Of a stretch of DNA of 22,581 bases, positions 11,284 to 18,911 are shown piece after piece. Positions within the stretch are counted from its first letter, which is position 1; every line of letters begins with the position of its first letter. Origin of the DNA: a virus; the IMG/VR virus record IMGVR_UViG_3300042868_004901, positions 1 through 22,581 of that record. One strand, 5' to 3'. The position numbers were made by a program, and so were the translations under genes. The notes beneath the pieces were generated by a model that worked only from the letters and a program-made list of their open reading frames with translations, was not told where the DNA came from and ran no database searches.

Positions 11284-11330
11284 GTCTATCTCCGTTTGGC
11301 TGCTTCGTCGGGGAATCCGTTCAAGCAGTG

Positions 11331-11360
11331 TTGACACTATAGTTCAGTCGGACGTATGAT
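11331..11360 (+). promoter_or_regulatory. Rightward sigma70 promoter
   Basis: TTGACA (11331-11336), an 18-base spacer and TATGAT (11355-11360). It should start transcription near 11367, about 25 bases before the ATG of the HTH gene. The leader lacks a good ribosome binding site. Confidence 0.75.
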
Positions 11361-11365
11361 GTCAA
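11336..11365 (-). promoter_or_regulatory. Leftward sigma70 promoter, face to face with the rightward one
   Basis: On the minus strand TTGACA (11365-11360), an 18-base spacer and TATAGT (11341-11336). The -35 of each promoter touches the -10 of the other, so polymerase can occupy only one at a time. It drives the leftward operon beginning at 11283. Confidence 0.72.
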
Positions 11366-11391
11366 CACCCGAACGCAACTTTTTTAACAAA

Positions 11392-11580
11392 ATGCTTACA
11401 CTTGAATTGATCCGCGAACAGCTTCAGGACCGACGATTGACCGTCATTGCAGAGCGCACAGGCCTGCATCCGAACACTCTGAGGGACATTCGCAACAATG
11501 CTGATTGCAACCCGTCTCATAGAGTCCTGGCGGCGCTGAGTGTTTACTTGACAAATAGCGCAAAAGCAGTGCTTTCCTGA
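11392..11580 (+). CDS. Small HTH (Cro/CI-like) regulator, 62 aa
   Basis: ATG 11392 is chosen because the ORF's earlier ATG codons lie within the promoter -10 region, upstream of the expected transcript start. Residues 15-45 form a helix-turn-helix: RLTVIAERTGLHPNTLRDIRNN, with AERTGLHPNTL as the turn and recognition helix. PSHRVLAALSVYL then packs as the last helix. The size and fold match Cro-like phage regulators of the XRE type. There is no Shine-Dalgarno sequence, so expression may be low. It is placed to bind the inverted repeat at 11328-11368 and choose between leftward and rightward transcription; no target has been shown. Confidence 0.78.
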   Translation: MLTLELIREQLQDRRLTVIAERTGLHPNTLRDIRNNADCNPSHRVLAALSVYLTNSAKAVLS

Positions 11581-11615
11581 TTGCGTTGTCTCTCTTATCC
11601 TGTTAAGGTTTGCAT

Positions 11616-11720
11616 GCCAGACAGTCAAATCCAATAAACCCAGGAGAGAGGGCAGCCCCGTATTGGCGGGGTGTCTGGCGACGGCCCTCTCCCCTGGGTT
11701 TTCTTTCGAAAGCCAGACAT
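11616..11720 (+). ncRNA. C4/CI-like antisense RNA element
   Basis: A long stem pairs 11636-11644 with 11693-11701 and 11646-11653 with 11684-11691 (17 bp, one A/C mismatch). It encloses a CCCCG/CGGGG hairpin (11656-11671) and an exposed segment TGTCTGGC (11672-11679). That segment is complementary to GCCAGACA upstream at 11616-11623 and again at 11712-11719, where the second copy ends on the A of the next gene's ATG. Phage P1 C4 and P4 CI RNAs work in this way: a folded RNA within the transcript pairs with sites by a start codon and represses it. The stem is followed by TTTTCTTT, so it may also terminate. Assignment to the C4 class is inferred from architecture, not from a covariance-model match. 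Confidence 0.55.
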
Positions 11721-11928
11721 GTCCATATCAATCATCCCTGCGGCCCCAGGAATTTACGCCGTTACGCTTGACGAAAAAAATCGCGAACAATTTGAACTTG
11801 TCATTGCTTGGCAAATTGAAGTCGTAGACAAAAAAGACTCAGAATTCTTTGACGACATGACCGTTATCCCTATCGGTTGTGATGATCGAATTACTGGCGC
11901 CATCAGAATAGTTCACGGGAGCGAATGA
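11719..11928 (+). CDS. Hypothetical phage protein, 69 aa, probable target of the C4-like RNA
   Basis: The open frame begins at 11671, inside the RNA hairpin. ATG 11719 is preferred because it directly abuts the second GCCAGACA site, and the protein then starts MSISIIPAAPGIYAV. The product is beta-rich (ELVIAWQIEVVDKK) with DDMTVIPIGCDD and a C-terminal strand IRIVHG. I recall short phage proteins with a 'VVAW.I' strand followed by 'PV....', without function. The ribosome binding site is poor (GAAAG), so translation should be sensitive to RNA structure. The stop overlaps the primase/helicase start region (ATGATG at 11925-11930). Confidence 0.65.
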   Translation: MSISIIPAAPGIYAVTLDEKNREQFELVIAWQIEVVDKKDSEFFDDMTVIPIGCDDRITGAIRIVHGSE

Positions 11929-13985
11929 TGGCCGATCTCTCCAAAATCCTAGGCGGTCCATGGTCTCCCCCAGTGGAGCCAATCCCCCAACCCCTAGAAG
12001 TGCAGTTTGCTGATGCAATTCGCAAAGATGGAAGAATAGAAGTACCAGACAAAATCATAATTGATGGAAATATTCATCGTTTCAGGTCTGGCTCTACCGC
12101 AAAAAGACTTGATCGAGCTGGGTGGTACGTTGCCCATGCCGATGGCATTCCCTGCATTACTTTCGGCTGCTGGCGTGAAGACATCACTATCACGACCCGT
12201 GCCGACATGGGGGGAAGAAAGTGGTCCCCAGCAGAGGAAATGGCCCATATCGCCAGAATTGCTGCTGCAAAGAAAAAGCGGGATGCCGAAATAGAGCGGG
12301 ACAGAGGCATAGCCGCTAGTGACGTAGAGACAATTTGGAGCGGTGGCACACAGGCCACATCAGAGCACCCCTACCTCAAACGCAAAGGCATTGAGGCACA
12401 CGGCGCCCGGGTCACTGGTGACGGGCGCTTGATGGTGCCTTTGTTTTCTCCCGATGGTGAGTTGGCAAGCCTCCAGTACATAGACGACACTCACGGGCAG
12501 GGCGATAAAAAATATCATCCAGGTGGCCAGACTAGCGGCATGTTCTGGATGCTTGGCACTTTTGACCAACCCGGCACGTTATACATAGCAGAAGGCTTCG
12601 CCACAGCCGCGACGATCCACCAAGCAACAAATCGCCCCTGCATTGTTGCTTATAGCGCTAGCAGCTTGGTCCCAGTCACTGCAAGCCTACGAGAAATGTA
12701 TGGCAAGAATCAGGACATTGTTATCGTGGCAGATCATGATAAGCACGGTATAGGGCAGAAATACGCCGATCAAGCAAGCGCAAAGCACGGAGCAAGGGTG
12801 GTCACCCCGCCAATTGAGGGCATGGATGCAAACGATTACGTCAAAGCGGGCCATGATCTTCTGACGCTATTAGCGCAGCCAACCGGCTCGGCAGTCATTG
12901 ACAAACTAAAAGTAGTTTTCGGCGACGAGCTGGGCACAGAGTACGAAGCCCCCGACGAGCTGATAGAGGGCTTGCTCGTCATGGGTAGCCTGACCGTCAC
13001 CTACGGCGATAGCAACTCAGGCAAAACATTCTGGGCCTTGGCCATGGCAGCTCATATAGCAATGGGCCGGGACTTCTTTGGCCGAAAAGTAGATCCCGGC
13101 CTGGTGGTCTATCTGGCCAGCGAAGCCCCCGGCTCTATCCGCTCAAGAATGCAGGCCATGAAAAAGTTCTACGGTCACGACCTAGCCGACTTAGCCATGG
13201 TCCCGCTCCCGATGAATTTCTACGAAGGCGACGAAGACGCTAACGATGTAATTGCCTTGGTCCAGGCCATCTCAGAACTAAAAGGCAAGCCTGTTCGCCT
13301 GATCGTTGGCGACACCCTGGCCCGACTCAGCGCCGGAGCAAATGAGAACAGCGGCGAAGACATGGGCCCAGTAATGGCAAGGTTCGACCGAGTAGCCCAG
13401 GCCACAAAAGCAGCCCTGCACATCATCCACCACAATGGCAAGGACCAAGCCAAAGGGGCAAGAGGATGGTCAGGCATTCGCGCCCACATCGACACAGAGA
13501 TCGAGGTAGCAGAGAAAGACGGCATTCGTTCGGCTTCAGTCACTAAGCAACGCGAGCTGCCTGGCAAAGGTGAGGCAATCTACTTCCGCCTTGAGATAGT
13601 CGAAATGGGCACCACGAAATTCGGCCAAACCGCAACTACCTGCGTTGCAGTACATGACCAAGAAGCAACTGAAACAAAACCCCATAAGAAACCCACCAAA
13701 CACGACGAGAATATTCGGACTATTGAGAGGGCTTGGGATAAATCAGGTAGGGAGATAAGAGATGAAATGCCTTATATATCTAGGTCGGCATTAAGAGAAT
13801 TACTCATAAAGGATGGCGCATCAGAGCGGACCGCCAAGAACAAGACCGAATCCAGCCGGGCCGATGGGCTTATTTTGCCGATGATAAACGCAGGAACCCT
13901 AGAGCAATTTGAGCATGGGTGGCGAGTGATTGATGGAGTTTTGGCGAGTGGGATGCTGTTACAAATCGCCCCGAAACGCCCCTAG
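11928..13985 (+). CDS. Bifunctional DNA primase (TOPRIM) / RecA-like helicase
   Basis: The product is 685 aa. ATG 11928 lies 6 bases past GGGAG and is preferred to ATG 11925, which is only 3 past. The N-terminal 130 residues lack a clear motif. A TOPRIM domain follows, with E222 in YIAEGFATA and D269-H-D271 in IVADHDKHG, then MDANDY. A RecA-fold ATPase of the AAA_25/RepA type follows: Walker A GDSNSGKT (360-367), a middle LIVGDTLARLSAG that contains the Walker B aspartate, HIIHHNGKDQAKGARGWSG, and a C-terminal basic winged-helix-like segment (about 600-670). Fused primase-helicases prime and unwind at the phage replication fork. GGGGC repeats just downstream may belong to the origin. Confidence 0.93.
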   Translation: MADLSKILGGPWSPPVEPIPQPLEVQFADAIRKDGRIEVPDKIIIDGNIHRFRSGSTAKRLDRAGWYVAHADGIPCITFGCWREDITITTRADMGGRKWSPAEEMAHIARIAAAKKKRDAEIERDRGIAASDVETIWSGGTQATSEHPYLKRKGIEAHGARVTGDGRLMVPLFSPDGELASLQYIDDTHGQGDKKYHPGGQTSGMFWMLGTFDQPGTLYIAEGFATAATIHQATNRPCIVAYSASSLVPVTASLREMYGKNQDIVIVADHDKHGIGQKYADQASAKHGARVVTPPIEGMDANDYVKAGHDLLTLLAQPTGSAVIDKLKVVFGDELGTEYEAPDELIEGLLVMGSLTVTYGDSNSGKTFWALAMAAHIAMGRDFFGRKVDPGLVVYLASEAPGSIRSRMQAMKKFYGHDLADLAMVPLPMNFYEGDEDANDVIALVQAISELKGKPVRLIVGDTLARLSAGANENSGEDMGPVMARFDRVAQATKAALHIIHHNGKDQAKGARGWSGIRAHIDTEIEVAEKDGIRSASVTKQRELPGKGEAIYFRLEIVEMGTTKFGQTATTCVAVHDQEATETKPHKKPTKHDENIRTIERAWDKSGREIRDEMPYISRSALRELLIKDGASERTAKNKTESSRADGLILPMINAGTLEQFEHGWRVIDGVLASGMLLQIAPKRP

Positions 13986-18490: not shown

Positions 18491-18639
18491 TGCCACTAGT
18501 CAAATCCACCAGCAAAGAAGCCTTCCGCAAAAACGTAAAGGCTGAGGTTAATGCTGGCAAGCCTGTGAAGCAGGCTGTTGCCATTGCCTACTCTGTCAAG
18601 CGTGAAGCATCTAAACCATCTACATCAAAAAAGAAATGA
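18490..18639 (+). CDS. 49-aa Lys-rich phage protein
   Basis: ATG 18490 overlaps the terminase stop by one base (TAATG) and the stop overlaps the GroES-like start (ATGA, 18636-18639). The product begins [20 protein letters not shown], then [20 protein letters not shown] and a Lys/Ser tail. Short phage proteins of this 'MPL.KS.SK.AF..N...E...[15 protein letters not shown]' type are common, often annotated DUF6496. They are probably nucleic acid binding by charge. Position between terminase and portal is typical. Confidence 0.82.
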
Positions 18640-18911
18640 ATCTGACACCTTTAAGCAATTGCGTACTGATTGAGCAAGATGTTGAGAAATCTAGCGGGCT
18701 GATTGTTTTGCCTGAGAGCAAGATGGCTAGTGGTGTGGTGGTTGCTGCGGGCCCGGGTTTGCGCAAGGAAGATGGTACGTTGGTGCCGATGGATTTGGTG
18801 GTTGGTGACCATGTGCTGTTCGGGGAGTATTCCGGGCAAAAGGTTAAGCATGACGGCAAAGAGTATCTTATGATGCGTGAGCCTGACGTGATTGGGGTTT
18901 TGAATGGCTGA
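18636..18911 (+). CDS. Phage GroES-like co-chaperonin
   Basis: The product is 91 aa (bacterial GroES 97). Features: [12 protein letters not shown] near the start; a mobile-loop-like [47 protein letters not shown]; and [20 protein letters not shown], which parallels the GroES C-terminal strands. Such proteins replace or modify the host GroES on GroEL to fold phage capsid proteins, as gp31 of T4 does. The start is coupled to the 49-aa gene by ATGA, and the 3' end overlaps the portal start by 8 bases. It is expressed with the head genes, in keeping with a role in capsid folding. Confidence 0.9.

Follow-up and report, generated by a model that had tools for sequence, protein, structure and literature searches.

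Genes and features of the locus

The window, that is, the whole stretch of DNA analyzed here (positions 1 to 22,581 of IMG/VR record IMGVR_UViG_3300042868_004901), is a 22.6-kb viral record whose genes include a P22-type portal, a terminase, a lysozyme, a Cas4-type exonuclease, and Sak4. A phage-encoded GroES-type co-chaperonin (Cpn10, E 1e-22) is found between the terminase and portal genes, at 18636-18911. The locus of interest consists of a regulator gene, a hairpin element, a small ORF, and a primase/helicase gene, the coordinates of which are collected in Table 1. The predicted structure of the 69-aa protein, with a pLDDT of 51, is uninformative, and phrog_8785, considered as a relative of this protein, was set aside due to a similarity too weak for use. 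A palindrome at 11329-11368 (TGTTGACA..TGTCAACA) lies across divergent promoters and is retained in relatives; it is probably the operator of the HTH protein.

Table 1. Features between the regulator gene and the primase/helicase gene of the window, with the evidence for each.
Feature	Position	Strand	Evidence and remarks
HTH regulator gene (Cro-like)	11356..11580	+	phrog_18104, E 4.5e-9; upstream neighbor of the RNA element
Promoter-like TTGCGT - 17 nt - TAAGGT (extended -10, TGT before)	11581..11609	+	Position of the -10-like hexamer common to members
Site A, GCCAGACA	11616..11623	+	Exact loop complement; own-site specificity 1/120 permutations
Stem P1, 5' arm	11636..11653	+	Fold, complementarity, covariation
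Hairpin P2, CCCCG-UAUUGG-CGGGG	11656..11671	+	Present too in L142 and L144, found without using P2
Antisense loop, UGUCUGGCGACG	11672..11683	+	Octamer 11672-11679; core YUGGCG
Stem P1, 3' arm	11684..11701	+	Fold, complementarity
Terminator-like U-tract TTTTCTTT, end of P1	11699..11706	+	Sequence; GAAAG shortly after
Site C, GCCAGACA, overlapping the start codon	11712..11719	+	Exact loop complement; own-site specificity 2/120 permutations
69-aa small ORF, motif IPAxPGxY..VIAW	11719..11928	+	99% in L081; distant relatives in L142 and L144
Toprim + AAA_25 primase/helicase	11925..13985	+	Pfam; its start and the stop of the small ORF overlap

The 17-bp stem with an inner hairpin described in the initial annotation was confirmed. 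The two arms of the outer stem, P1, are 18 nt each and 94% complementary, with one mismatch, and P1 is the strongest hairpin of the window (17 pairs versus 13 for the runner-up). The element has a folding z of -4.7, and none of 200 shuffles was equally stable. The copies of GCCAGACA placed by that annotation upstream and at the start codon of the 69-aa gene are likewise both exact complements of the loop octamer TGTCTGGC, the last base of site C being the A of the ATG. The octamer had also been described as exposed, which in the predicted fold is true of its TGGC, which is open, and less so of its TGTC, which is partly within a weak 3-bp stem. Opening the octamer is calculated to cost about 4.3 kcal/mol versus -13.0 kcal/mol for the 8-bp duplex, and by these estimates pairing of loop and site is energetically favorable.

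With the hairpin held fixed, an 8-mer complementary to both flanks arose in 1 of 20,000 flank shuffles. When the hairpin is not required, such triplets occur at about 3e-4 of sampled positions, with three more elsewhere in the window, and the octamer complementarity alone is therefore weak evidence; the decisive support for the window observation comes from the distant members presented below. The promoter-like sequence of the window was missed by a consensus scan and thus appears weak in itself, and site A is predicted to lie at or adjoining the 5' end of the transcript. The segment 11588-11612 is complementary to the 5' arm of P1 (-24.3 kcal/mol, with 7 of 1000 shuffles as good), and is a possible antiterminator for transcription arriving from the HTH promoter.

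Occurrence in close relatives

About 110 relatives of the window were gathered via the primase, and only one of them, L081, carries the element, as a near-identical copy. In the nearest relatives (L001 and L009) the hairpin, the GCCAGACA pair, and the 69-aa gene are all absent, and the HTH gene abuts the primase gene. The HTH gene of L081 differs from that of the window at about 19% of positions, whereas the region corresponding to 11572-11965 shows five or six differences, of which three adjoin site A and none falls inside it. The comparison across 11340-11965 thus contains a sharp recombination boundary, with the 394 bp that follow the HTH gene nearly identical. The hairpin and the 69-aa gene, by this pattern of divergence, travel as a cassette. 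Searches of phages, plasmids, and genome contigs for direct homologues of either the hairpin or the 69-aa gene retrieved only L081. In L019, L022, L024, and L025, other genes, PAPS reductase-like by eye, are inserted at the same HTH-primase junction. Because the close relatives lack the element, covariation could not be tested within the close family.

Distant members of the family

A first DNA pattern was built from the motif of the 69-aa protein, and in its matches L142 and L144 a long stem of other sequence lies upstream of the gene, with an inner CCCCGTA..CGGGG hairpin and with the complement of the loop found upstream of the stem and again at the start codon. A second pattern consisted of P2 and YTGGCG only, with P1 and the sites not included, and returned 63 stretches. 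The stem scores of these stretches were bimodal: L178, L198, L200, and the known members scored 15.5-21.5 and the rest at most 7.6. Since their stems and sites were outside the pattern, L178, L198, and L200 provide independent confirmation. We would like to note that the members amount to only about four independent lineages, L142, L198, and L200 being related and the window and L081 near-identical. BLASTN searches with the L200 and L178 elements against phages and plasmids yielded no match.

No evident RNA element accompanies the IPAxPG proteins of L146, L148, and L150, and the RNA is therefore not tied to this protein. Upstream of position 4066 in L152, an IPAxPG-family gene follows a long stem with an inner hairpin, a TTTTTATTTTT tail, and a different loop; this could be either a simple terminator or a further variant. 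A tripartite GCCAGACA pattern was tried as well, and its matches in L083 and L085-L087 (viral) and in L131-L138 (bacterial) were rejected, the fold being absent and the repeats mostly unrelated. In L083 (3047-3230), and also in L085, L086, and L087, dense palindromic (G)GCCAGACA arrays lie directly downstream of a primase-helicase gene, resembling replication-origin iterons.

The window was left out of a covariance model trained on the other five members. It was the best new match of this model (28.5 bits, E 0.023 in 770 kb and 0.0017 in 59 kb), scoring above all decoys and antisense strands, though well below the 67-79 bits of the training members. A search of 90 relatives with the window-free model gave L081 as the sole match. 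Given this match, along with the common P2, sites, promoter position, and gene order, we take the window element to be a divergent member.

Shared structure and loop-site complementarity

From 5' to 3', the members are laid out as a -10-like box, site A, P1, P2, the antisense loop, a U-rich tail, and site C. The -10-like hexamers (TAAGGT in the window, and TATACT, TAAAGT, TACAGT, and TACACT) are found 6-7 nt before site A, which begins GCCA.. and is joined to P1 by a linker of 7-15 nt in all members. P1 spans 18-25 positions throughout, the loop is always 12-17 nt long with the core YUGGCG, and site C ends within a few nt of the ATG in every member. The U-rich tails of the other members are akin to TTTTCTTT, with a weak U-tract in L144. 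P2 is conserved as CCCCGUA..CGGGG, together with the loop core, independently in the window, L142, and L144 and by construction in L178, L198, and L200.

A MAFFT alignment of all members misplaced the stems, and a staged covariance model was used instead. In the resulting alignment, which is fitted to the structure and in which L198 and L200 are nearly the same, both sides have changed in 8 of 12 P1 pairs (17 double-change cells), and the covariation score for P1 is 0.478, versus 0.137 +/- 0.040 for shuffled alignments (0 of 500 reach 0.478) and 0.04-0.12 for slid controls. The compensatory changes for which the initial annotation proposed to search related phages are thus present, in distant phages.

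The site A sequences are GCCAGACA, GCCAACCTT, GCCAACCG, GCCAAACAC, and GCCAGCCTC, each of which pairs with its own loop; the last of these has one G-U, and the site A pairing of L198 and L200 includes one G-U pair. The site C sequences are GCCAGACA, GAAAGCGCCA, CAGCGCCA, GTCGCCA, and TTGAAAGCGCCAA. The complementary runs are 8-9 nt for site A and 7-13 nt for site C. When each loop is paired with its own site, the energies sum to -83.3 kcal/mol for site A, versus a permutation mean of -58.4, and to -84.4 kcal/mol for site C, versus -67.2; 1 and 2 of 120 permutations, respectively, are as good, the observed one included. One octamer serves both sites in the window, whereas the other members use the loop's other half for site C. 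Conservation of both GCCAGACA sites, as looked for by the initial annotation, proved too strict an expectation, as the letters change between members while the complementarity is kept.

These results bear on two other accounts of the locus. A long GC-rich stem followed by TTTTCTTT could be no more than an intrinsic terminator or attenuator separating the HTH gene from a moron gene, with the complementarity due to chance, and the insertion of other genes here in some relatives would fit; we consider this quite improbable, as each lineage repeats the complementarity in letters of its own, at least 7 nt of it in both flanks is seen in 0 of 57 decoys (the other pattern matches), and both P2 and the loop core are conserved. 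Even harder to credit is that the GCCAGACA repeats act as DNA, with the primase or the HTH protein using them as iterons or operators of a replication origin. The P4 origin does carry 8-bp repeats, and GCCAGACA arrays follow the primase-helicase gene in L083 and L085-L087, but the letters of the octamer differ across members with the loop always inverse to both sites, the stem covariation and the conserved, strand-specific loop indicate RNA, and relatives with homologous primases are without the sites.

Operon context and proposed mechanism

The gene order is HTH regulator (in the window, L142, and L200, and in L178 by sequence similarity), RNA, small ORF, and primase-helicase, with a further gene between the regulator and the RNA in some members. 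The small ORF and primase-helicase are found downstream wherever the contig continues, the L198 stretch ending at the start codon. The primase-helicases are of three kinds: AAA_25 (as Toprim+AAA_25 in the window and PriCT_2+AAA_25 in L178), VapE+AEP (L144), and D5 (L142 and L200). The small ORFs encode IPAxPG proteins in the window, L142, and L144 and unrelated proteins of 104 aa in L178 and 106 aa in L200. Since the small ORFs vary and the association with a primase-helicase is constant, the RNA follows the replication operon and not the small ORF. The target proposed in the initial annotation, the 69-aa gene together with the primase/helicase, therefore stands as regards primase operons, and the small gene is not a constant target. 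The family thus combines a conserved, covarying structure with loop-site complementarity that also covaries and with a constant position before a small ORF and a primase-helicase.

Our main reading, to which we give a probability of roughly 0.6, is that the window element belongs, as a divergent member, to an undescribed family of phage RNAs with a proposed antisense mechanism on the replication operon. We infer a dedicated promoter, termination, action in trans, and repression, which would work together as follows. RNA polymerase would start at the dedicated promoter, with site A as the 5' end of the transcript, transcribe the P1/P2 hairpin, and frequently stop at the U-tract just past P1. 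Termination would release an RNA of about 90 nt with the antisense sequence in its loop, and this RNA would pair in trans with read-through transcripts at sites A and C. At site C, the RNA would mask the first ORF's start codon and ribosome-binding region. With the sites paired, the small ORF and the primase-helicase coupled to it would be translated less and reached by less read-through, such that the replication operon would be auto-limited, as by the CI RNA in P4.

A cis-acting switch was considered as well, in which the loop would pair within its own transcript, leaving the start codon free when bound to site A (ON) and blocking it when bound to site C (OFF). Every member shows overlap between the two pairings, which are mutually exclusive, since both use the TGGC core, the sites flank the hairpin on one RNA, and the pairing of 11588-11612 with the P1 5' arm would permit alternative leader folds. 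We nevertheless find such a switch rather unlikely: next to stems that span 18-25 positions, the linkers are short (7 nt from site A to P1 in L178, and about 5-7 nt from P1 to site C in L142 and L200), so that pairing in cis would be sterically strained, though possible, and the known systems so arranged, P4 CI and P1 C4, act in trans.

Returning to the trans-acting antisense RNA, we see roughly even odds for the broader proposal that such a family, in diverse phages without detectable integrase, limits replication through the 5' end and start codon of its own message, whatever the primase-helicase and small ORF. The window and 18 relatives of 29-41 kb contain no recognizable tyrosine or serine integrase, and the member records no recognizable tyrosine integrase; the records may be fragments. 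A role in prophage immunity is accordingly doubtful, and control of replication timing or of superinfection is as plausible. The new RNA may set the timing of replication or exclude related phages, and the loop-site code makes its specificity directly testable.

Comparison with known systems

The arrangement that the initial annotation likened to the P4 CI and P1 C4 RNAs is present at the locus, with a folded leader whose loop is complementary to an upstream site and a start-codon site, before a primase/helicase gene. Membership in the C4 family itself did not hold up. The Rfam C4 model (RF01695) gave no match in the window at the gathering threshold or at E<=10, none in 18 records, and none at E<=5 in L142, L144, or L178, while P4, used as a control, scored 74.9 bits. 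A second antisense segment is absent, there being one octamer only; the full third hairpin is absent, the second inner hairpin reaching no more than 3 bp in the window and missing from the model of the other members; and GGW is absent from the 5' base of P1 in every member. No credible Rfam match was obtained for any member tested, at gathering or relaxed thresholds. Thus, of the earlier suggestion of an undescribed C4 member or a new class, the separate family is what remains: the structured-RNA family is real and, as compared with the Rfam families, apparently undescribed. A 'c4-2' motif with a C4-like structure has reportedly been published, and the new RNA may be identical to a motif of this type outside the Rfam comparison.

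The new RNA is most likely an antisense RNA that acts on the replication operon in the manner of P4 CI and P1 C4. In P4, the CI RNA (seqB) is likewise a leader hairpin RNA, its replication operon has a primase-helicase among its genes, and its pairing with the flanking seqA and seqC terminates transcription of the replication genes (PMC4825925). In both cases, the antisense sequence has matching sites both before and after the hairpin. Our complementarity search recovers two segments in P4, each with an upstream and a downstream match, and cmscan finds C4, isrK, and c4-a1b1 there. CI differs from the new RNA in its third hairpin and in its two antisense segments, which target GTGAGAA and TTCACAGG, where the new RNA has one loop with overlapping halves, and in spacing its elements by about 150 nt and not by tens of nt. 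The two show no match by sequence or covariance model, and only the new RNA has the conserved CCCCGUA hairpin, the U-tract directly after the stem, and site A at the predicted 5' end. The isrK and c4-a1b1 RNAs (RF01394 and RF03163), both of which P4 contains, are prophage leader RNAs from circuits of the same kind; the window and the members gave no match to either.

The target of the P1/P7 C4 RNA (icd/ant) is an antirepressor operon and not a primase. C4 and the new RNA share an outer stem of about 17 bp and a small hairpin followed by the antisense loop, as well as a target near the ribosome-binding site and a variable loop that carries the specificity (PMC5320573). The published description of C4 has a' and b' loops and RNase P processing at GGW (PMC5320573), and this RNase P site and the Rfam C4 match also set C4 apart from the new RNA. 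Known phage examples of antisense control by a leader hairpin come mainly from P4, where a replication operon is the target, and from P1, where it is an antirepressor. A second family on three kinds of primase-helicase, with no sequence relation to the first, would suggest repeated evolution or exchange of the circuit.
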